Assembly: GCF_035083965.1 (NCBI RefSeq)
Contig: NC_089738.1
Coordinates: forward strand, 7,299,734 to 7,363,733
DNA: 64,000 bases
Origin: Branchiostoma lanceolatum
Taxonomy: Eukaryota; Chordata; Leptocardii; Amphioxiformes; Branchiostomatidae
Reading direction: 5' to 3'
The notes under the pieces were generated by a model, which was given only the letters and a program-made list of their open reading frames with translations, was not told the DNA's origin and did no database searches. Made by a program: the position numbers and the translations under genes. This document shows positions 4,730 through 56,600 of the stretch, piece after piece. Every line of letters starts with the position of its first letter. Positions within the stretch are counted from its first letter, which is position 1.

Positions 4730-6014
4730 ATATCCAAATGTCGACATGCTAAAAAAGATGAGTACACTACAACTGAACAGTAACCTTCAAGCAGATGTTA
4801 TAGTCAAGCTCAGTGCTTTATTTTCACACGTCTTTTTGCAAGATTTTGTACACTTTCCTAGTATTGCACCTTTTATGTTTTAATGATTGGCCCTCCTTGG
4901 AGCAAATGTTGACAAAAAAAACTCCAGGTGTAAGAAAAAAATCTTCAAGCAGATGTAAGTATCCTTACATCTACATTAAGATTAGTAAAACACTACTTGG
5001 AGATTGCATAGATGTCAATGCCATGCAATGGTTGAACTTGTATTGGCAGTGGCACCAAAATACAGTATCTTATTTCTATTGAGAATTAACTAAAACTTGA
5101 TAAAGCGTCATGTCTAAAGCAATCAACGCCCATAAAGTTGAGAGTAATAAGTAAGTAGGAGTAGTATCTATCCTCATTTAGCATTCTTCCAGTGCTAGTC
5201 TATAGTATAGTATTCCATTCTTTGCAGAAAGAGATGATAATGAAAGAAAAACAGCTATATGCTACTGTATGGTGATTCATCCAATGGCACTATACTGCAT
5301 CAACTTTATAAAATCAAGTTCATCTTCAGGTACTTTTCAGAATTCAACCATCAGCATACTTGTGGCAAGAGAGGAAAGGAATTGACGTCAATCTTACCCA
5401 ACCCTTTTCATCATTCCAAATTATTCAGAGCTTAAGTGACCAGACTAAGCATAATATCTATCTATTACATTTCGGAATATAGAGTGACCTTTTGATACCA
5501 TCTTTCTTTCAATTGCTGTGTGTATATCGTGTCAGCTAAAAAAAAGACAAAAGGAAAAGAACTAATCTTCTATATACCACTCATCAGCTTTATAATTCCT
5601 AGTCTGGCCTTCCTACCAATTTCCCTAAATGGAAGTGTTAACAAACCCTATATCTAGCTGCTTCTATGATGCAAATTCCGAGTGGATTGAAAAAAAGTTA
5701 ATGCAATGATACCATCAATTCTTTGATCAGTACATTTACAACACTACAGAGTACAGAAAATTTCATACACCCTATGCATTCTTTTGGCGTTACGATTCAA
5801 GAAAAATAGATTTAGTCATTCTTGTTGGCTGGATAACTGTAGGGAAAGTACGGTTGAAAAATTGCACATATAGCTGTATATGATTAGAAGTATTTTCCCT
5901 ATGGCAGAGATTGGGGATAGGTAGTTGTGTCATTAAAACTACAGGAGATCTCACACCAGGGTTCCGTCATCTTGAAATCTGTCATTGAGGTTTCAACATG
6001 TGGTGCTCTCACAC
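4730..6014. other. Intergenic, no gene seen
   Basis: AT-rich sequence between the hAT MITE and the stop of the DED gene. I see no splice-bounded coding segment, no RNA gene and no clear repeat. The part nearest 6014 is presumably the 3'UTR of the minus-strand DED gene. Confidence 0.4.
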
Positions 6015-9000
6015 CTAAGTTCTATCATATGGTGAATTCTCCTGTAGCTTTTTGACGTTTTCCCTTTCTTTTTTGAGTTGGTCCTCTGCTGTCTTGAGCA
6101 GGGATTGAAGTTTGGTGGCGGCTGATCCCAGCTCCTTACACAACTTCTTCTCCTTTTCAAGACGTGCCTTGAGTGCAGCTATCTCCTCATCCCTTTTGCT
6201 GAGATCCTCCTCTGTGGGACCCTTCAGGCTCTCAAATTCCACCTGCTGCACGACTTCCTGCATTGCACGAACCTCTCCTCTGGCTTGTTCGAGGTCTTTG
6301 CTTGCTAACCTCAGCTTCTCCTGCCACTTCTGTTCCTCTGACCCTGCGGCTCTATTTAATCTGTATAGAATGGATTCTGTGTCAGCCAGAACAGTCTTGT
6401 ATTTCTCACACTCCCTCTGCAGTTCTTTTTCCCTCTCCGCTGCCTCTCTTTTGACTTGTTCGAGGTGTTCGTTTGCTAACCTTAGCTTCTCTTGCCACTT
6501 CCGTTCCTCTGACTCCGAGGCTTTATTCAGTTTGTTCAGGATGGATTCAGTGTCTGCCAGAACAGTCTTGTATTTCTCACACTCCTCCTGCAGTTGCTTC
6601 TCCCTCTCTGCTGCCTCCGCAAGCTTGGATTCAACACCCTCATTCTCTGGAGTCTGGGAAGACACTTCAGCAGTCTGCTTGGTTTTCAGGTCTTCTAGCC
6701 TGGCAATTGCAGCCTTCTCAAAGCTGGTTAACCAGACCTGGTACTCCAGGGTGGCGTCCATGGAGATGTCTGGGAAGATTCTCTGCAGGGCTTCTTTGGC
6801 CCAACTCCTGTCCTTTTCGATGTCTGATATGGCAGCGTCATGTTCTCTTTCTTTTCTGAGTTGATCCTCTGCTGTCTTGAGCAGGGATTGAAGTTTGGTG
6901 GCGGCTGACCCAAGCTCCTTACACAGCTTCTTCTCCTTTTCCAGACGTGCCTTGAGTGCAGCTATCTCCTCATCCCTTTTGCTGAGATCCTCCTTTGTGT
7001 GATCTGCAGGACCAACTTTTGCCTGGCTACTCCCTGCATTTTCTGTGCTTCCCCTTTCCTCGGAATTCCCCTGTAGCTTTTTGACATTTTCCCTTTCTTT
7101 CTTTAGTTGATCCTCTGCTGTCTTGAGCAGGGATTGAAGTTTGGTGGCGGCTGATCCCAGCTCCTTACACAGCTTCTTCTCCTTTTCAAGACGTGCCTTG
7201 AGTGCAGCGATCTCGTCATCCCTTTTGCTGAGATCCTCCTCTGTGGGACCCTTCAGGCTCTCAAATTCCACCTGCTGCACGACTTCCTGCATTGCACGAA
7301 CCTCTCCTCTGGCTTGTTCGAGGTCTTCGTTTGCTAACCTCAGCTTCCCCTCCCACTTCTGTTCCTCTGACTCCACGGTGCTCTGAAGTCTCTTCAGGAT
7401 GGATTCAGTGTCTGCCAGAACAGTCTTGTATTTCTCACACTCCTCCTGCAGTTCTTTCTCCCTCTCTGCTGCTTCCCTTCTGGCTTGTTCGAGGTCTTTG
7501 TTTGCTAACCTCAGCTTCCCCTCCCACTTCTGTTCCTCTGACTCCACGGTGCTCTGCAGTCTGTTCAGGATGGATTCAGTGTCTGCCAGAACAGTCTTGT
7601 ATTTCTCACACTCCTCCTGCAGTTCTTTCTCCCTCTCCGCTGCTTCCCTTCTGGCTTGTTCGAGGTCTTCGTTTGCTAACCTCAGCTTCCCCTCCCACTT
7701 CTGTTCCTCTGACTCCACGGTGCTCTGCAGTCTGTTCAGGATGGATTCAGTGTCTGCCAGAACAGTCTTGTATTTCTCACACTCCTCCTGCAGTTCTTTC
7801 TCCCTCTCTGCTGCCTCCGCAAGCTTGGATTCAGCACTTTCATCCTCTTGAGTCTGCTTGGCAGCTGTCTTCAGGTATCCTAGCCTGGCAATTGCAGCCT
7901 TCTCAAAGCTGGTTAGCCAGACCTGGTACTCCAGGGTGGCGTCCATATTGATTTCTGGGAAAATTCTCTGCAGGGCTTCTCTGGCCCGACTCCTGTCCTT
8001 GTCTGATGTGGCACTGTCATCGTTATTTTTCTGCTGCTTCTCCTCCTCCTCGTTCCTTTTATCTGCCTTCTCAGCCTGTGTCGACCAGCCACCAGGTGGT
8101 TTCTCATCTATGTCCCCCGCCACGTGAGATGCAGCTTGCTTACCGGCCTTCTCTGCGTAGTAACGGGCTTGTTGTAGCTCTTTCTCAAGAACTGTGATCG
8201 TCTCCAGGGCTTCCTTTAACCTGTTCTCTGCAATGATGAGTTTGGACCGCATGGTCATTAAAGTGTCGGAATCCACCTCTGCATTCCTGAGATTCCGGAT
8301 GGCCTGCCTCATCTGGTGTTCTCTCAGCTGGTCCTTCTGCACCAGAGCCTGGACCAGGCTGTAGGAGAAGCCCTGGTACTCCAGACTCTCGGCTATCTGC
8401 AGATGGAGCGGCAGGGCGTCCGAGAACAGGTTCAGAGCAGACAGACTGGACCAAGTCTTGGGCGCCATCTGTTGCTTGTTACCGGCACTGCACCCCACCT
8501 TGATGTCATCGACAGGCAGCTGCCTTTTGATATCTGGAATGGAAGTGACATTTATAGCATGTAAAGTTATAGGTACTTCGGTAATAGTATGATAATTACT
8601 TGATGAAATTCAAAAGAATAATTCAAAACGCACCATACAACTGCGCCCCCTGGTTAACGTTGACAGGTTGTTCACCATCGATTTGCAGTGACTTGACGCC
8701 CATGTACACAAGTCTTGGGTCGGAGTGATTCGCCATGAGCCTCAGCACCGCTGTGTCCTCCCGCGGTATGGTGAAGTGCACCAGGATGCTCTTGTGTTTT
8801 TTAACTCCTCTGAACATAACGTGTGACCTTCTGGTGCGACAAAGGGACGCTAGGTTGTTTCTAAGTTGGTCTAGAGCTTCCTGGGTCATACGCTGTGGGC
8901 CATTTACGACCACGTAGGTGTTTGCCGTTGCAGCACCTGAAAAGATTAAACATATTTTAGTACTGATTGAAATAATCAACCTAAGCTGCATGTTAAAGAT

Positions 9001-9531
9001 GCTTTCAACCCAACAGAAACAACAAAAAAAGGTCGATGATGTTGGAAAAACTTCATCCACAAAATATTAATTTGTAGAGGACGCAAGGTCTAGATCACTT
9101 TGCACAACTTCTAAGTTACATGGTCACGGTGTTTACAACTATTCTTCCTTCTTACCTTCTTCACTTGCATCCTCCTGACTTGTTCCTGGTTGAAGTTCGG
9201 GGTTTTCCGGAATCTCTCGGTCAGGCGGTTGGAACGGCCCCAGGACGTCCCTTATCAAGTCCTGTCGTCCTATCCGTTTCAAGATTTCTTTTATGAAGTC
9301 AAGGTTTTCCTGGTCTATTTTGCCCAGTTGTATTAGCTTCTTAAATACATCAACCGCCTGATCAAGCTGTTCTAACCTGCCGTTTGGAATCAGGTGCATG
9401 CAATACAATTTGACATGTTCCGTCTCTCGCACGGTTAGGTCTTCAGATATCCGTAGTAACGTTTGCACAAAATCAAAATGGCGTCTGTCTACATCTGTTA
9501 TTCCCTCAAATTCCCGGACCGGACCTGCCAT
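6015..9531 (-). CDS. Death-effector-domain protein with duplicated p180/kinectin-like coiled coil
   Basis: Three exons join in frame: 9531-9156, 8936-8634 and 8533-6015, with phase-1 introns, giving about 1065 aa. Residues 1-95 form a death effector domain: FDFVQTLLRIS near the start, then LDQAVDVFKKL, and the RxDL motif of helix 6 as GRQDLIRDVL. Residues 126-226 are a compact unnamed domain ending GVKSLQIDGE. Residues 320-1056 are coiled coil. It has the 57-residue unit EKYKTVLADTESIL...EEQKW three times (about 466-636) and twice (about 866-979), an ALQRIFP...EYQVWLTSFEKA module twice (405-448, 800-844) and an EDLSKRDEEIAALKARLEKE module three times. The tail resembles RRBP1/p180 and kinectin coiled coils; no transmembrane segment is visible. 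Role inferred: a DED adaptor or scaffold for caspase-8/FADD-type assembly. An acceptor (TTTCAG) lies one base before the ATG, so the 5'UTR is spliced. Confidence 0.8.
6276..6617 (-). repeat. 171-bp coding tandem repeat, second block, two diverged copies
   Basis: Two further 57-residue units lie near the C-terminus (landmarks at 6422 and 6593 are 171 bp apart). They are more diverged from each other than the three units of the 7.3-7.8 kb block. With the flanking ALQRIFP and EDLSKRD modules this block looks like a second copy of one larger cassette. Confidence 0.85.
7302..7814 (-). repeat. 171-bp coding tandem repeat, three copies
   Basis: The same stretch recurs with exact 171-bp spacing (landmark GTTCTTTCTC on the plus strand at 7451, 7622 and 7793), encoding three nearly identical 57-residue coiled-coil units. 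Only scattered substitutions separate them, for example N/K after LA and N/K after ESIL, so the expansion is recent or homogenised by gene conversion. The period is a multiple of three and keeps the frame. Confidence 0.95.
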
Positions 9532-9904
9532 TCTGAAACGAAATGAACATCATTCAACTCAATTGTGCTTCTACACCTGAATAATTTATTCCAGTCTTAT
9601 ATTGTATAATGATCCATCAAAAGTTTAAGTGCTTGTGTCACCAATGACACTAAACTACAATAGTTCCTGATTACAAGCAACCATCATAAGTATTAAATGG
9701 ACAAAAACGTTTGTACAAAATATGCACCCTTTTGATGTTATTCAACATCAAACCTTACAAATCATACTTCCCTTTCTTGATATCTGCCTCCAGGTAATCA
9801 AGTTAATTTCCAGCTCATGACGTCATAGTCAACACAGCACTCGGTTCGAAACCTGATACCTCGACCGCTCGAGAAGAAGAAAAGCAAACAAAAATTGAAT
9901 CACA

Positions 9905-10258
9905 ATCTACACGTGCTACATCAGACCAATCCTAGAATATGCTGGACCCCTGGCCTCACCAAAAAAACAAACAGAGAAGCTTGAACAGGTCCAAAAACGG
10001 GCTTGCCGGATCATATTGGGCATTGACTACGCTGGTTGCCCCCATGCCCTGCAACAGCTCGGACTCACAACACTGGCACAAAGAAGAGAGCACTTGATGG
10101 AGTCTAACTTCAGGGACTGGCTGCCGAACACAAGAGGGGGCATATCCGGCTGTAACACCAGAAACAAACTGAAACTCAACACACCACTCTGTCGTACCAA
10201 CAGATCTAGACTCAAAAACTCTCCAATTCCGTACCTTGTAGCTCTGCTGAACGAGTGA
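9905..10258 (+). pseudogene. LINE reverse-transcriptase C-terminal fragment inside the inverted-repeat element
   Basis: The frame reads YIRPILEYAGPLASPKKQ... then EKLEQVQKRACRIILG, a pattern typical of the post-thumb end of CR1/L2/jockey-type ORF2 proteins. It continues in the same frame to a stop at 10256-10258. No catalytic core is present, so this is a 5'-truncated remnant. It lies between the two arms of the 9629-11153 element and differs clearly from the second LINE tail at 10414. Confidence 0.75.
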
Positions 10259-10413
10259 CTGTTCTCACTAACGTGCCCATGCCTTCTCTGCTGCATTGTA
10301 TCAAACAACAAAATCCGAACCGACTGCCGTATTTACGATGACGTCATAAGATGCAAATTAACTTGATTACCTGGTGACAGGTATCAAGAACTGGAAGTAT
10401 GACTTGTAACATT

Positions 10414-11026
10414 TAGAGTTAAGGATGCACTACCACTTCGGCAGAGAATAGCCGTAGTCAACGCCTTGATAATCCCACATATAGACTACTGTTGCTCAGT
10501 ATGGGGAAACACAACACAGAACAACATAAGAAGACTACAGGTGGTTCAGAACAGGGCCGCAAGGCTCGCTCTTGGCTGTGATCGCGACACACATGTGGAC
10601 TACATGCTGAAGACCTTGGGCTGGCTGACTGTTAGGGACAGAATTCAACAGAAAAGCTTTGCCACATTTAGACGAATAATGCTCACCAAACAACCGAGGG
10701 TCCTGTATGACAAACTCACATTCCAGTCAGAGATCCACAATTACCAAACACACTCAGCCAGAACAAACACAATCAGACTTTCAAAACCAAAACTCTCAGA
10801 AAAGGCGCTTTCTGTACAGAATGTCTCAGTTGTGGAACAAGACCGGCGGCTATTAGCAAATAATTGGACTGTAATTATTGTTTTTAAGGAATTATGTTTT
10901 GTCCTCTACTGTCACGTTGTATGTCTTTGTATATCCCGATTGTAATGTGTAAATATGAATGTGTAGACCACAGGAAGAATAGCCTCTTATGAGAATAATT
11001 GTGGATCTAAATAAAACTCAAACTCA
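10414..11026 (+). mobile_element. 5'-truncated LINE 3' end with 6-bp target duplication
   Basis: The frame before and through 10466 reads RIAVVNALIIPHIDYCCSVW and then RRLQVVQNRAARLALG, the C-terminal signature of jockey/CR1-like reverse transcriptases. The coding part ends at 10945 and is followed by an A-rich tail (CTAAATAAAACTC). AACATT is repeated at 10408-10413 and 11027-11032, consistent with a target-site duplication. The insertion breaks the right arm of the older inverted-repeat element. Confidence 0.75.
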
Positions 11027-13934: not shown

Positions 13935-26678
<12,744 letters not shown>

Positions 26679-27177
26679 TGTCTTGATCCTAGAAAAGGAG
26701 GGCCTCTCTTCTATAGCTTGTCGTGATGTCTTCTGTGTTGGCTCTGTTGTAGGGCCATTTAGTTTTCTGGCTCCCGAAATACCCTCTTCTTGCTCTTGTT
26801 TACCAGATACAAGGTCAGTGTGTAGAATGAACAAGAAGGAATAAAACTAATTCAAACGGAGACTTCAATTTTCAGGACGATTACGCTGGGAGACAAGATA
26901 ACTCAACGGCAACGTTATAGCCGTTCCCCCTCCGTCAGAGGATTAGAAATATGAGACTAGGCACGGAAAGAGGAAACTCCTTCATTAAAACTTCAGTCTT
27001 GCGGTGGTCGTGAGCAACATTCGGCGATGCGATATTAGAGTTAGAGCCGGGTAAATCCCGGTGTAGCGGCCGGAGAGACTGGAATCATTAGTACAGTCAC
27101 CGTACAAAGTACCTCACCACGTCTCTTCCTCACGACGTAATCACTCAGAGGCGGCGTTTGCTACGTGCACGTTAGTC
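26679..27177 (-). other. 5'UTR region of the receptor gene, with a probable non-coding exon at 27118-27177
   Basis: On the minus strand an acceptor (CTCCTTTTCTAG) lies 13 bases before the ATG at 26678, so the 5'UTR is spliced. A candidate non-coding exon is 27177-27118, with acceptor CCTTCCTTCCAG and donor GTGAGGT. An upstream in-frame ATG at 26834 would be removed by this splicing. Confidence 0.4.
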
Positions 27178-47620: not shown

Positions 47621-50600
47621 TCATCTATACTGGTTTGCAAGGATTTCCACATTTTGCTGAAGTAGGGGTGGACAGACACATAGTGCAGGCCTTGGAAGCT
47701 TCATCCATGATTGTAGAGCATTCAGGGCGTGGCTGGGGTTGCTAGGCGACAGCTGGACCAATGAGGAGGCTGCTGCTATCTGTATACCCCATGGTACTGC
47801 AGAAGAAATTTTTTCAGTCAGCAAAACAAAACCACAGACATAATATTATTGTCTTTCTACAGATGCTAATTTCAATTTTAATTTGTTTAAATCTAAAACC
47901 TTGTTTAAATGAAATATATTTCATAAACTTTAAGATGTTCCCCTAAGTTTGAGTTTGATATCCAAAATCAGATAATGATGAATGGTTTCTTGGAAAAACT
48001 TACACGAACTGACAGTGGCAGTCAACTTCATGACCGAATTATACTATTTATAGAACATGTTTCCCTTTTAGCTTTGCCCTATTCTAGGACAAAGGCCAGA
48101 GTGACGTACAATTTCAGTTTTCAAGCTCAAAGTTTTATAAACAGTATTGTCAGCAGTGACACCTAGCTGCAGTGCAAAATAGTACCAGTCAGCATTGCCC
48201 AGAGAAAGATGATAGTTGGTCACTGAAATGTCGGCTTGAAAAAAACACCTGGTTGTGTACAGTGACTTACCAACAAGATGAAACTATTCACGGAGAATAA
48301 AAAGGAGGTTGTACCTGAATTCTGATTCTTCTCTGCTTCTGCCAGCATCTTTATCATGACCTGTTGTAGCTGGTTTATAGACGACTGGTCCTCGACTAGA
48401 CCAATCCTCCCGACACAACCTGTTTCAGAAACAAGAGTACCGGTAAGTCCTTTGGAGTTAACTTATTGTTGAAAAAGAAATGGTTACTCAGTACATACAC
48501 ACCATAAGAATCATCTTCAAACAATAAAAAAATGCATTTGGGTTGATCGATTGACTTGACAAAGAGGATATAGGCAAAAGGACTATACACACTTTCATCA
48601 AATGTAGTCAAATTAAGCTGTGGATAATAGCATGCAAATAGTTGAAATGTAACTTCAAACCGAAGAGCAAGCAATCCGAGAAACTTCGATGTGGAAACAG
48701 ACACATGCAAACACAGAAACATGCACACACACAGACATACAGACACACACACAAACAAACATGCACACGTAAGAAGAGAGAGTAAGGAGACAGATAAGTA
48801 AACCCAAAACAATACTTAACAAGTACACAACTACCTATCAACAGAAATAGAAGTTGATAGGAAAGAGCGTAACTCACCAATGACTTGCATGATAGCGACA
48901 ACAGTGCCATGAGGTACGGTGCTTTTGATCGTCCTCGGCCGTGGTGAGATCTTGTTCTCGCGCCACTTTTGTACAACTGGCAGTAGCAGGGTCTGTATCA
49001 GGTAGTCATGGGTCCACTGCCAGCCCTGGTGAGAGGCCAGCAGCTCCAGGGCTTTGGCTGTCTCGTACATTAGGGGGTTCAGACAGGGGTACTTGACTGG
49101 AGGAAAAAGTCCAAAAAGATATGTTGATAAAATTAGACATCCATGCAGGTAATACAAAACACAAGATAAGAATTATCACTCAAGCAGAGTTTGGAAACGA
49201 CCAGACGTTGTCACCGATGAAAGTGATGCTGTCTGAAACATCTGACGGTTTCCAAAATCCATCTAGTTGCTTGTATAACTGTTATCTTGCGAAGTCCCAA
49301 AAGACTTTACTGGAGAGTTGACTTGATGCCTAAGCCTTTGCAAAAGTCAGGAGAAATACATGATGTTGCATGTAGGACAACATGCATGCAATATCACTAG
49401 ACATGGAAAATGCAGCAACATGTAGAATCATCCTAAACAAAGGGCTATGCAGACTTCAAAAACTTACTGGTAAGGGGTGAACGATGCTAGAAGAAATTAT
49501 GTATCCAAAGTATTGTTTTCTCAAAGAATGTCCCACAGATTTGGTCTTTTTCTATAACTCTTAATCATGCTAATTAGCCATCGTCCTTAAATTGATATGC
49601 TGGTTACAACATTGATTTTTGCTACACTGGCACAGGAAAAAAAAACTAAAAAAAGTGGAGCAAAGTGCTGGTACATGTACTTTCAACTTCTGGCAGAACT
49701 CAACTCAAAAGCAATATTTCCATTATGACTACAGTCTTACCTTTAGCAGTGTTAGTCAACAGTTGTGCAGATTCTTTTCTCTGTAGAAGCTCCACAAGTC
49801 TTTCTGCCAGACTGTTCACATCTCCGCCCTTCATATCCTTCCACTGATACAGACTCTTGAAGCACGACTTCAAGTCTTCTTTAATGTCTCGACTCATCAA
49901 GACCAACTCGATTACATGTGACATGGGCCCATCTTCCAGGGCGGGGCCAGTTCTTTGGAGAACCAGTGGCCAGACTGAGACTATGGTCAGGATTCTGTCC
50001 ACTGGGGAGAGCAGCCTTTCTCGGAGAATGTCGTAGACGAGAATTCTTACTGGCTCAAGATTTCCTAGAAGAAAATAACAACAACAAAATAACATCATTA
50101 AAACATTGTCTGAGAAATATCTTGAGTAAAAATGGCAGGAAACCTAAAATGCGAGACAGGTGATTTTACCTCAAGTAGAAACCAGCCTTTCGACTTCTTC
50201 TGTTCAACATTTTTTTTCACATTTTCTACAATAGACCGATCCTGTAGAACACCATATCGAACAAATAGCACCCCCTCTTCTATTTCAGACAGAAATGACA
50301 TGTGTTAAGCAGTCTATAGCCTTTTTCCTTGGCCCGCTCTGAAAGGGTTTCAGAGCCAAAAAAGCTGAGCCGAAGTCAATAGGCATTATTGACAGTCTAA
50401 TGGCAACACCCATTTTTGTCCGTCAAGAGCTGTTTTTGACGGAGGTGTTCGAAATAGAACAGGGGGTGGAGTTTTGTATAGCAGCAGATAACCGGGATGT
50501 ACCATTGTTCATGAACAATAGGGGTGTGCAGGACTTACCTGTTAGCCTACACAGCCCTGTATACAGCCTACAGGTTGCCAATAGGTCCTCTTTTCCGATA

Positions 50601-53600
50601 TTCCTCCTGATCTCTGTCGAGAGGGCGCGGCTTACTCGGTTGACCAGGCCCTTCCACTTGACCAGCTTGACCAGGTAGGTGACCCTGCCCAGTATGGCCA
50701 TCTCGGCTGTGGTCATGACCGGTAGCTTACTGCCAGTTTCACACATGGTCTTCACAGCTGGGAACAGGTCCACTCTGGCCTCCTCACTCTGCAGTAGGTA
50801 CTGCAAATGTAGAAAGACGCATTTAGAAGGTACACATTGCATCATATATGTAAGGTAAAGCGGCTGAAGCTAAGATGGAGGACGAAGCATGATGCTTTTT
50901 GAAGTTTTTCATTAGCTAGTAGTGCAATGCAGCCTTGTAACGGCTAGCATGTTTACCCAAGCATACTGGATCACCCTTACTTTTCTTGATAAGTGTGTTG
51001 GTTTCTTTTAGGTGCAGAGGTTTGAGTCCCCCATACAAGGGCAAATGCAATCCCTTAAAACATGTCTGACCTGGGGCTGACATGTATATACATTATCTTC
51101 AAAGATACTAGTACTAGTCTTAACATTGTAGTCATTTTGGGTGAATGAAATTTTCTCTTTCCACAAGTAGCCACGTTGAAAAGTATGAATTTCTGAAACT
51201 CTTCAGACTATGAAACCTGCATATATTACAGTTACTGTAAATGCATTTAAGTTTGCAAGGATTTAATTACCGTTTTGGGTAGAAAATGGCGTGTTTGCGA
51301 TGGTTTTAAGTTCGCAGTTAAAACAAGAGAGTAGGCATGCAGACGACAGAACAAGCATTTTTGTGGTGGTTTCAAGTTTTTGGTGAAGAGGTCACTGCCA
51401 AAACTGCGAACATTAAACCACTGCAAAAAAATTCCATATCTACAGTATGTACTTACCTCCATGATGATGTTGACTGCACCTGTCAAAGTAGCTCCCCCTT
51501 GCATGTTGCTCATGTATTGCAGCACATGGTCAGCTGTCAGTTTGTCTGTGGGCCCTGTCTTGAGTTTCTTCACTGCTCTTCCCTCCGTCCCCTCCTCATC
51601 ACTTTTATCTGTGATCTCCCCATCTTCTACATCTTCTTCCAGACTCCTTTTGCTTGTTCCACTAACACAAGGAACATCTTTAGATTCAGCTACATCTCGG
51701 ACAGCGTTGAAGGGAACGTCACTATCATGAACTTGCTGGGATTCATTTGTCTTTCCTTCTTTGATTCTGTCTTGAAGATCTACTTCCTTTAGTCTGGGCA
51801 TCCCTGATGTCTGTTTTTCCTTTGCCTCGTCTTGAAGTGTTAAGGACTGCACTTTATTTTTCCTTTCTTCTTTCGTCTGCTTTAGAGTGTGTCTTGAACT
51901 CTCTTCAGGAGTGGTGGTTGTTGCTTTCGTAATGTCCTGGCCATTTTGTGAACAAGATGGCCCATCAAAAACATCTGTTACTTTCTCTTGACCACTCTTT
52001 GCATTTGAGGTTTTTACTGCTTTGGTTTTCAGTTGTTGACTACTGGTGGGCTGAATCAGCAAAGTTGTAGGTCTTGGATTTCCCTTTGCAATCTTCTGTT
52101 TTTCTTGTACCACGGTACTTTTCTTACCACATCTCCAGGCAGTCTTTTCACTCTGAACAAACAGGATGGCTCGTTTCTTAGTAGAATTGTTCCAAGTGTT
52201 TTGAGAGGGGGTATCTTTCCCACCCATGCTAAGAGACCTTGCTGCACCCCTGCCTCTGTTTGCCTTTGGTTTCACCTGCACAGCTCCCTTTGGAGCAACG
52301 GACCGGAACACGCATGGAGAGGGGTGTGGATTTTCTGCATTCGGTGATGTAGCATCCTTTGTAGAAGCGTTTCGGGACAAACTATCCTCACCATGAGGGG
52401 TGACTTGTAAGGGTGATACCACTGGCGGCAGGGGGGTTTCTCGAAGGGGAGAGATGGGTAACTCCTGGGATGGGGATAGACAAGGGGATGCTGACCTCCT
52501 CCATGGCGAGGGCGGCAATGGGGAAATCGGAGCTTCCAACAGGAAAGGAGACACTGGCAGTGGCGAGAGCGCCAAAGACTCAAAAGGAGAGGGTGGGAGG
52601 GGGGAAACTGGGGATGTAGACAAACTGCTACGGTTGGACCTGTTTGACAGTTGAGGACTTATTCTCTCAGGGAGACTTGCCCCAGCCTGTTGACTGATAA
52701 ACACTTCTACAGTATGTTCATGGTGTTCTTGTACACTTACTTCACCACCCAGTACACCATTTGTGGCTTCAGTTTCACTCTCTGATAGCTCCCCTTCCTC
52801 CATAGTATCCTCATCACATGCTAACTCTTGTTCTTTGGGTGCCTCGATGCTAGAACCATCGTTTGCACTGCTTTGTTTTGCTTCATCAAGGGGCTTGTCT
52901 GTATTTACTCTAAGCTCCTTGGGTACCTGGTTTGGTACCTTTGTACTGTCTTCCTTTCTTGCTTCATCGAAGAGCTCATCTGTACTAACTCCGAGTTCTT
53001 GGGGTACCAGTTGGTTAGTTGTATTGTCTGTACTAGCTTCCTCTCTTCCTTGATCTGAGAGCTCTTCAGCATTTACTCCAAGCTCTTGGGATACCCGCTG
53101 GTTAGTTGTATCGTTTGTATTACCTTCTTTTCTAGCTTGATCTTGAAGTTCATGCTCATGTGTATTTGCAACCTGCTCAACTTCAGTCACCTTGTTCTTT
53201 GTAGCAGCAGCTTCTTCCGTGTAGAGTTTTCTACCATGTGCAACATTTTGTTGCTTTCCTGATGACACTATGCTTTGTGATGCTGTCTTCTGTTGTGATG
53301 GTTTGTCCAATGGCTCCAACACAACAACAGCAACTTTGTTGATTGTTCGTCTAATACTTGATGCAGATATTTCTTTTAGACTCTTACAAATAGCTCCATC
53401 CTTTGGCACCTTGCATGTAGGGTTATTAAGCCATTCAGCTTTTGGAAGGGGTTGCTCCATGACCATCTGTGGTGCCATGTACAATGTAGGTGTAACAGTT
53501 CTTTGTGCTGAGAGCAGTTCTTTATCTGATACACTGTCTCCAGATGTATCTTTCATTCCCAAGGGTTTGGGTGATTTTTCTGGTTGCACATTTTTGGTTA

Positions 53601-56600
53601 CACTTTTCTGTGCATTTGTGTTTGTGCTTTTCTCTGATGACAAACTTGCCTTTTCTGATTTTCTTGTCGACCTTCTGGGTGTACCAACTTTAGGAGGGTT
53701 GTCCTTTGCCTCCGCATCGGACAGGCTCTTTTCCGAAGAGGAACTTCTACTCCTTGTTCTTGAGCTTGGACCGTGTATGGGGCTTATCAACTTGGTCTGC
53801 AACCTGGTTACTCTCTTGGGAGAGACGTCCCCCTCCCTCTCTGATGAAGAGCTGTCTCTTCGACCTCCAGGAGTGACCTTGCTGCCCTGACACAGTGACC
53901 TTGTAAGCGGCCTCCTGAACTCTGGCGAATCAGATCTTGGCTGTTCTTCTTGATCTGATTCAGCTTTTGAAATGATGTTCGAAGGCTCTTTATTTACCGA
54001 TGATGCGGCAGGTAGGTCCACGTGAGGCGAAGAAATCTTTAACTCAGAGTTTACGATCTTGTTTTCAATATGACTATTGCATGCTTTGTCAAGGCCTGAT
54101 GGCATTTCGTTCTCTTCTTTACTCTGTAGTTTGGTGGTTTCTTCCTCTTTTAAGGTGTTGTTAATCTTTTTGCTGTCCACTGATTTCTTTTCTTTCTTGT
54201 CCTCTTTTCTTGCCATCTCTTCTTGCAACGTGTCATCATTTTTGTTGACATTTGTCTTGTCCTCAGTATCTTCTGCCTCTATTCTTTCCTCTATTTTGTC
54301 AGTCTTGCTTTCATGCCTTGATCTAAGTTCATACTGGGCTCTAGGAGAGTTCCCTTTTTTCTCCTTAGGCATGTCACAGGCATCTGACTCTGACTTGTTT
54401 TTCTTTCTTGTCATGTCAGTGACCTCACGATTTTGTTCTTGCTCTTCTTTAGCGGAGTCGTGAGACCGTGATCGTAAAGGATACCTAGATGGGGTTGTTA
54501 CTGCTGTCTTCCTTGTCTTTGGTGGAGATATACGCACTTGTGATTTTACTCCTGTTTTCCTCTCTTCTTCAGTTGTGTCATCCTCTGATTGTGGTCCTGA
54601 TGCCATTGCCACTGTAGAACACAGTCTGGCCTTTCGAGGTGGAGAGGCAAAATTCTCAGCACCATCTTTGAATCCATCTTTAGCCTTTGTTTCACTCTCC
54701 TTTTCCTTTTCTGGAGAGGAATCGGACTCACTGTCACTTAGATCCTCTATTTCTCCAAACCAAGAACGGCAATCATTCTCGTAAAAGTCTTTGGTTGCTT
54801 CCACAGGTGGTGTAGTTTTTTCCTCTGTTAGAACAGCCTTAGCTTTTGCTGCTCTCCTCAGAGGTGGTCTTCCTCGTCCTCTTTTGCCACCACGACTTTG
54901 CGCTTGGCTTCTTTCCCTCGTGAGTTTCTGAGGACTTGAGCTGTTAGCAAGATCTCTAGGAGACCACTTAACTTCAGTCTTTCCTTTCTCGTCGGTAACA
55001 TTAACTGTTGGTGACTGTTTTAGAGTGTTGGGCCTAGGAGGTCTATTGTTCTTGACAGGAGAAAGCTTTGGTGGGTCATTCACTTTATCGTCGTCATAAT
55101 CCATGTTGGAGAATGGTAGGGTCTGTGTGCCTCCAAGAAGTTCGTTTTCGATCCTGTCAGCATCATCGTCCATGTCACTGTTGTCATCCGAACTGTCACT
55201 TGAAGAGGAAAACTGCAAAAACATTGGCTTATATAAGTCACAGAAATATAGCAAAGTAATGAATAAGCAAAGATGCATTTTGTAGACTAAGTGTGTATTT
55301 GTGTTACTGTGAGCACAATAAAGCAGTAAATTTCCTGTAATATTTCTCTTAATATGTAGTTACGAAAGGCAGCAGATGCTGTCTAAAACATCTGTTTCCA
55401 AATTCTATGCAGTTGCTTGAGTTACTGTCATTTGGCATATCTTATTTCTTGGATGTCTAACCTTCATCAACATGTTTCTCCTACTGTTCAGCAGAAAATC
55501 TAGAAATACCATTTTTAGCTGTAAATATGCTTAAATGTCTTTAAATTGTTATCAAACAATACAAACAGCCTTCTGACTCGTTTAACATACATGAAAAAAT
55601 GACACAAATCTCTCACCCTATCATCTCTTCTACATGGAGCAGGAGTTGGTGGGAGGGGAGACAAGGGTGACAGAGGCATAACAGGAGACAGAACACCCCT
55701 ATTTGCCACGTTGGACCAGTCCATTTCTTCTTCCTCGTCACTGGTTGCATTGGGCGTATGGGAGCAGCTCATTGCACTGGCAGGGGGTGGTGCTGTTCGT
55801 TTAGGGGTTCTGATACGTGTAATACGGCTTATTCTGGGCTGTCTTGCTGGGTTAACTACAGGAATATGTGTAGTTGCTCCAGCTGTGAAAAATAGGAGAA
55901 GATACATGTAATTGGTAACACAGTACATCATCAATGGGGGAAGGTGAAAGTTTCATCCTCACAATACAAGCTGAAACAAATTGGACAAACTGAAGAAAAA
56001 CTTAAATCTATCTGTACAGTTAAAGGCAGGCTAAACTTAATTTCGTAAAGCATACTGCAGTATGTTAAATATACCACTAAGACCAGTTCTGACTTGTTTT
56101 ACACTAGTCCATCATAGATTAGCGCTTTTACAACATTTGAAATTCGCGGTGTGGTGATATAATACTGGCGATGTCCAAAGCCCTTTGACCTTTGTGACGT
56201 CAGATTCCGAGTCGGAGGAATGGCGTCTGGAGCAATTCCTATGGTGCAGGTGTGGCCGACTCGGAATCTGACGTCACAAAGGTCGAAGGTCTTTGGACAT
56301 CGCCAGTATCACATCACCACACCGTGAATTTCAAATATTGTAAAAACGCTAATCTATGATGGACTAGTGTAAAACAAGTCAGAACTGGTCTTAGTGGTAT
56401 ATTTAAAATACTGCAGTATGCTTTACGAAATTAAGTTTAGTCTGCCTTTAAAGATTATGTCTAAATTTTAAAAGCACCATTTTATTCATGCTTTAGAAAA
56501 AAGTGGGAGTAATCACACATAACTGTAACGTACATAAAAATGTAATCCTATTATTTGCAAAAGTTTGATATAACTGTGACATTATCGATACAAGGACATT

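Follow-up and report, generated by a model that had tools for sequence, protein, structure and literature searches.

A predicted amphioxus protein joining DED and TRADD-N domains to a repeated coiled-coil tail of kinectin/p180 type

What kind of protein results when a death effector domain (DED) stands ahead of a long coiled coil resembling those of the endoplasmic reticulum (ER) proteins kinectin (KTN1) and p180 (RRBP1)? The question is raised by a gene of the amphioxus Branchiostoma lanceolatum that lies on the minus strand, between 9531 and 6015, of a 64,000-nucleotide stretch of contig NC_089738.1 (assembly GCF_035083965.1, positions 7,299,734 to 7,363,733; hereafter the window, in whose own numbering all coordinates are given). 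The gene has three exons and a product of 1,065 amino acids with the domain order DED, TRADD-N, coiled-coil tail, an identification of the parts in which we have high confidence. An earlier observation made from the letters and their open reading frames (the sequence-only reading) is confirmed as a whole, and the reading placed on it is supported in part. Despite its tail of kinectin/p180 type the protein is no kinectin, and with a probability of about 0.5 it would be a cytosolic death or immune adaptor whose tail offers an array of kinectin-type docking sites, or pairs with kinectin-like rods.

Gene model and signalling domains

Both introns have GT/AG borders and interrupt the frame in phase 1, exons 2 and 3 are separated by 100 bp on the same strand, and the joined 1,065 codons contain no internal stop (Table 1). 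The long third exon without introns, as previously described, is present: it measures 2.5 kb and belongs to an open stretch of 864 codons, versus a longest of 191 after its 2,595 nt had been shuffled 300 times by mononucleotide, counted in the three frames of one strand. An acceptor-like TTTCGTTTCAG stands at 9532-9543 of the minus strand, one base ahead of the start codon, so that a non-coding 5' exon further upstream is possible. The search for a poly-A signal found TTTATT no more often than chance (73 found, 71.3 expected), and scanning 5000-6100 for bacterial promoters was uninformative in this eukaryotic sequence.

Exon 1 does encode a DED with the RxDL motif, the defining mark of the DED family: it matches Pfam PF01335 at 9241-9468 (2.7e-18, 66.4 bits, cut-off 35.9) and reads RQDL at residues 89-92. 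The nearest PDB sequences by phmmer are caspase-8 (4.3e-7) and FADD (1.8e-5), with PEA-15 also found. Exon 2 had been seen as a separate domain without a name; the separate domain stands, and Pfam names it TRADD-N, through PF13820 (2.7e-12, 47.2 bits, cut-off 22.5, match at about 8659-8889) and PF20694 (2.9e-12, 46.7 bits, cut-off 23.7). These two profiles tie and by their scores favour neither the NCOA6 nor the DEDD2 clade. The AlphaFold model of exon 2, of middling confidence (predicted local distance difference test, pLDDT, 67.5), resembles S6, ACT and RRM folds, and TRADD is absent among the best 50 rows of either structure search made with it. The uS motif of TRADD-N consists of a tiny residue plus serine in the turn between strands beta2 and beta3 (PMC8195603); judged from the predicted strands, exon 2 has a serine at its residue 49, two residues ahead of a predicted strand at 51-57, preceded by a lysine, which is not tiny.

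Other searches with these exons returned little. Against the PDB, phmmer gave two weak FKBP rows only for exon 2 (0.053 and 0.38); PADLOC gave one weak row for exon 2 (DUF3644, 0.019) and none for exon 1; and PHROGs had no match for exon 2 or for 8091-8531. A scan of a genome contig set with exon 2 yielded 62 pattern-matching stretches and no relative, but a single-protein query reaches close relatives only, and a bacterial TRADD-N is thus still conceivable. Elsewhere in the window, tblastn (0.01, low-complexity filter on) found no further copy of the DED, the TRADD-N domain or the tail.

The front half of the protein has well-described company. Lineage-specific TRADD-N expansions include 13-129 NCOA6-clade proteins with DED, TRADD-N and WD40 tails in Branchiostoma species, and 46-71 DEDD2-clade copies in cephalochordates in which the death-fold domain and TRADD-N are constant and the flanks variable, and the authors regard these expansions as immune conflict systems (Kaur et al. 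2021, PMC8195603). Like the members of these expansions, which occur in Branchiostoma and in further marine animals, the protein described here has an N-terminal DED, followed by TRADD-N and then by a C-terminal part of the variable kind; it differs in the nature of that part, which is a WD40 propeller in the Branchiostoma NCOA6 clade and elsewhere a GTPase, RNA-binding or other domain (PMC8195603). DEDD2/FLAME-3 and TRADD also join a death-fold domain to TRADD-N, but no kinectin-like coiled coil is described for them in the passages of that paper that treat them, and its main text mentions none of kinectin, RRBP1, KTN1 and p180. The words TRADD, coiled and kinectin are likewise absent from the available passages of PMC2575513. 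Since DED and TRADD-N with a variable tail have already been described in Branchiostoma, the frame is known and the kinectin/p180 tail is the part that differs. A published link between DED and kinectin, or concerning amphioxus kinectin, is not among the matches listed in the literature searches, which leaves its absence unproven.

The coiled-coil tail and its kinship with kinectin and p180

The internal duplication of the tail noted earlier resolves into five U units of 57 amino acids (171-bp period), two M modules (ALQRIFP...YQVWLTSFEKA) and three T units (LKARLEKEKKL...AATKLQSLLKT), in the order N-terminal part, M1, U1-U3, T1, T2, M2, U4-U5, T3 (Table 1). The stretch 8091-8531 gave four weak Pfam rows, none reaching its cut-off, and the AlphaFold model of the first 230 residues of the tail is too poor for use (pLDDT 47).

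The kinship of the tail with kinectin and p180 that had been proposed from the sequence goes beyond a generic coiled coil, as is borne out by two published segments, a KTN1 41-mer and an RRBP1 16-mer, which were compared pairwise in place of RRBP1/KTN1 profiles or whole proteins; Pfam scans of the gene's segments brought up no RRBP1/KTN1 tail profile. The EEF1D-binding segment of human KTN1 is printed as 41 residues, used there for a deletion, and the Discussion of the same paper gives KTN1 residues 1125-1165, of equal length, as interacting with EEF1D (PMC13231004). This 41-mer aligns without gaps to each U unit at 45-49 bits (identities in Table 1), and the only other place reported for it in the tail scores 16.5 bits. 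Its Smith-Waterman score is 125, whereas 2,000 shuffled versions of the 41-mer scored 69 at best and masking the U units left a score of 40; by phmmer it reaches 31-34 bits per U unit, versus at most 16.9 bits in 177,635 PDB sequences, and a U unit used as query gives 42.3 bits here versus 20.4 bits for its best PDB row. The whole tail had no phmmer match in the PDB at 0.001, and scans of viral contigs gave 50 pattern-matching stretches for a T unit and 17 for a U unit, with no relative by tblastn.

Residues 1365-1380 of RRBP1 form a merlin-binding peptide (PMC10249358), to which the T units are identical at 10 of 15 aligned positions (score 51 versus a maximum of 45 in 2,000 shuffles); T3 is close to the C-terminal end, as the peptide is in RRBP1. 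A provisional human RRBP1 C-terminal sequence, which we treat as a lead only, aligns with M1-T1 at 95.5 bits, with U4-T3 at 85.5 and with U3-T2 at 72.0, whereas none of 300 shuffles exceeded 28.1 bits; the published 16-mer occurs in this provisional sequence where a total RRBP1 length of 1,410 would put it. Judging from these alignments, homology of the tail with the C-terminal rods of KTN1 and RRBP1 is well supported, the putative counterpart of the KTN1 EEF1D site being present five times.

The ER association suggested by the resemblance was not borne out: no transmembrane segment was found across the 1,065 amino acids, whose top 19-residue Kyte-Doolittle mean is 0.94, and the protein is thus not itself an ER anchor, nor is ER placement built into it. 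KTN1 has a single copy of the EEF1D-binding segment, for which CDR2 and CDR2L compete; the likeness lies in that segment (23-25 of 40 residues identical), and the difference in its five copies, in the missing transmembrane anchor and in the DED and TRADD-N in front. With RRBP1 the protein shares the T units and the order M-U-T, which agrees with the provisional RRBP1 tail, and it differs in lacking the transmembrane anchor and the ribosome-binding repeats of RRBP1, and in the duplication of the block. KTN1 and RRBP1 both carry an N-terminal transmembrane ER anchor (PMC13231004). Since the origin of p180 has been placed before Drosophila and that of kinectin only before zebrafish (PMC9804665), a p180-type gene is the likelier donor in an invertebrate.

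The T units are constrained, and the differences between their copies are mostly silent: 7 silent and 2 replacing between T1 and T2 (P 0.0007 under neutrality), 6 and 1 between T2 and T3 (P 0.0007), and 6 and 1 between the two GEV-T blocks over 79 codons (P 0.0006). The corresponding values are P 0.0045 for U4-U5 (12 silent, 15 replacing) and P 0.0075 for U1-U5 (11 and 14). All these P values are uncorrected and come from six selected, overlapping pairs of the 15 computed; U1-U4, U2-U4 and U3-U4, which have the highest ratios of replacing to silent substitution rates (dN/dS), are outside the six. Within the U units, the 16 residues ECEKYKTVLADTESIL of the KTN1-like core are invariant in all five copies, and this longest invariant stretch is common to the published KTN1 binding segment, whereas the downstream parts vary. 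At the DNA level the core is identical in U1-U4 and carries four silent and zero replacing changes in U5, so that only U5 speaks for constraint there. Over their whole length U1-U3 hardly differ in DNA, any two of them by 1-4 silent and 1-3 replacing changes, which is a sign of recent tandem growth, and gene conversion among the repeat copies is possible.

Table 1. Exons of the gene and modules of its coiled-coil tail (window coordinates)
Feature	Coordinates	Strand	Details
Exon 1	9156..9531	-	376 nt; start codon and death effector domain with RQDL; donor GTAAG
Exon 2	8634..8936	-	303 nt; TRADD-N domain; symmetrical phase 1-1 exon
Exon 3	6015..8533	-	2,519 nt including stop; residues 227-1065; intronless coiled-coil tail; stop codon 6015-6017
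Tail, N-terminal part	8013..8533	-	helical, no family found; AlphaFold helices, pLDDT 47
M1 module (ALQRIFP..YQVWLTSFEKA)	7860..8003	-	repeat comparison
U1, KTN1 EEF1D-binding-segment-like	7644..7814	-	25/40 identical to KTN1 41-mer
U2, KTN1 EEF1D-binding-segment-like	7473..7643	-	25/40 identical to KTN1 41-mer
U3, KTN1 EEF1D-binding-segment-like	7302..7472	-	25/40 identical to KTN1 41-mer
T1, RRBP1 C-terminus-like	7089..7226	-	10/15 aligned residues identical to RRBP1 1365-1380
T2, RRBP1 C-terminus-like	6843..6980	-	matched stretch identical to that of T1
M2 module	6675..6818	-	repeat comparison
U4, KTN1 EEF1D-binding-segment-like	6444..6614	-	24/40 identical to KTN1 41-mer
U5, KTN1 EEF1D-binding-segment-like	6273..6443	-	23/40 identical to KTN1 41-mer
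T3, RRBP1 C-terminus-like	6060..6197	-	matched stretch as in T1; shortly ahead of stop 6015-6017

A proposed docking array on a death or immune adaptor

DEDs assemble by homotypic contact, and BAP31/procaspase-8L at the ER offers a precedent for DED signalling near this organelle, BAP31 differing in being a membrane protein and in having no known TRADD-N. In the adaptor that we propose, the DED would self-assemble or nucleate DED filaments and recruit DED caspases or FADD-like partners, TRADD-N would recruit a partner of TRAF/MATH type, and the tail would dimerise, perhaps with kinectin/p180-like rods. The U array could provide multivalent docking for EEF1D, and hence for the eEF1B elongation complex, or for the competing dynein adaptors CDR2/CDR2L, a tentative mechanism that we place below even odds. 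A death or immune signalosome would in this way be joined to the translation or ER-positioning machinery, either being placed there or sequestering those factors on assembly, and the protein would gather its partners in the cytosol or be paired with kinectin-like rods on the ER. TRADD's own TRADD-N binds the MATH domain of TRAF2 (PMC8195603). RRBP1 also co-precipitates with exon-5-containing EEF1D isoforms, EEF1D and CDR2/CDR2L compete for binding to KTN1 (PMC13231004, citing Teixeira et al. 2025), and loss of the KTN1-EEF1D contact frees the eEF1B complex from the ER, with no measured change in global translation (PMC13231004). A more specific version, in which the five-fold array would let the DED/TRADD-N signalosome capture or shut off eEF1B, or bait microbial proteins attacking eEF1B, we consider unlikely.

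Several points weigh against the adaptor. The kinship test rests on a 41-mer, a 16-mer and the provisional RRBP1 tail. On the three-unit array Pfam WXG100 passes its cut-off of 27.3 bits with 32.5 bits (1e-7, three stretches), and the PDB search with a U unit gives weak rows for GrpE (20.4 bits) and EsxB; the predicted helices thus resemble other families too, though with lower scores. (WXG100 was not adopted as the identity of the U units, since the KTN1 segment matches every single one of them more strongly.) Between copies, M1-M2 is indistinguishable from neutral (6 silent, 13 replacing, P 0.21), and in raw counts replacing differences outnumber silent ones among the U copies and among the M copies. 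U3-U4, with 17 replacing and 4 silent, has a dN/dS of 1.11, followed by U1-U4 at 0.76 and U2-U4 at 0.66, and such values for U4 versus U1-U3 give no support for constraint along the full U unit. Losing EEF1D's KTN1-binding exon left global translation unchanged (PMC13231004), so the effect of docking may be small, and the tail is, by its predicted hydropathy, without an ER anchor.

The same variation among U copies suggests that the tail could be an oligomerising rod only, derived from a kinectin/p180 gene for being a good coiled coil, that would cluster DEDs and have no specific client. Coiled-coil repeats multiply easily, as the near-identity of U1-U3 illustrates, and the downstream U parts vary, with dN/dS up to 1.11 between copies. 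Heptads alone would suffice for a mere rod, however, and the longest five-copy invariant stretch is the one common to the KTN1 binding segment, in which U5 has silent but no replacing changes; this evidence is thin, U1-U4 being identical DNA there, and leaves the rod doubtful but worth keeping in view. Plant nucleotide-binding leucine-rich repeat receptors (NLRs) carry integrated decoy domains, and by that parallel the tail might bait microbial proteins acting on the ER rod or eEF1B, triggering the DED and TRADD-N. Five copies would raise avidity, and the TRADD-N expansions, with their constant signalling dyads and variable flanks, are read as immune conflict systems (PMC8195603), but the T units show constraint and not diversification, and no microbial partner is known here, so that a decoy is very unlikely.

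Least probable of all is an error in the gene model, with exons 1 and 2 making a short DED and TRADD-N protein and exon 3 belonging to a separate gene. Exon 3 does have an internal methionine at residue 249, the exon 2 donor (ATG/GTGCGT) is not ideal, and read on past this donor the frame of exon 2 would meet a stop after a few codons. Yet the phase agrees at both junctions and no stop interrupts the joined frame, an AG and a pyrimidine-rich stretch mark the acceptor, exons 2 and 3 are close neighbours on one strand, and such dyads commonly have C-terminal parts (PMC8195603).

Origin of the fusion, surroundings and implications

New TRADD-N fusions have been proposed to arise partly via retrotransposons or inserted reverse-transcribed transcripts (Kaur et al. 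2021, PMC8195603), and the intronless 2.5-kb exon, the phase 1-1 TRADD-N exon and the upstream traces of mobile elements fit this capture route. That the tail exon was captured as a reverse-transcribed (processed) copy is plausible and unproven. Just upstream of the DED exon lies an inverted repeat (9750-9848 and 10316-10414) with 99-nt arms that are 84% complementary and 467 nt apart, which looks like a DNA transposon or a miniature inverted-repeat transposable element. Two plus-strand open stretches nearby, 9902-10258 and 10406-10855, have no Pfam match; they are perhaps akin to the C-terminal ends of reverse transcriptases of non-long-terminal-repeat retrotransposons (long interspersed nuclear elements).

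Elsewhere in the window, exons of a rhodopsin-type receptor lie at 13935-16076 on the minus strand, with 7tm_1 just above its cut-off at 14000-14348 and narrowly missing it at 15027-15446 and 15792-16076; the stretch 26361-26846 resembles the N-terminus of a receptor and has no Pfam match. An ICE1_C domain (little elongation complex subunit 1; 3e-10) is found at 48834-49172 on the minus strand, and a 1,370-codon open stretch without Pfam match at 51247-55359 may share its gene. Long simple repeats at 21721-22233 contain open stretches reading as polyNP and polyTH.

Among marine invertebrates, DED and TRADD-N proteins end in many variable tails. Because EEF1D has been mapped as a partner of the human counterpart of the U stretch, in competition with CDR2/CDR2L, the partner of this adaptor is directly testable, and its long intronless tail exon provides a test case for fusion via reverse-transcribed copies in the TRADD-N family. 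If the binding holds, a death signalosome would be tied to translation elongation or to ER positioning, and if the array did capture or shut off eEF1B, death signalling would be physically and directly coupled to translation elongation.

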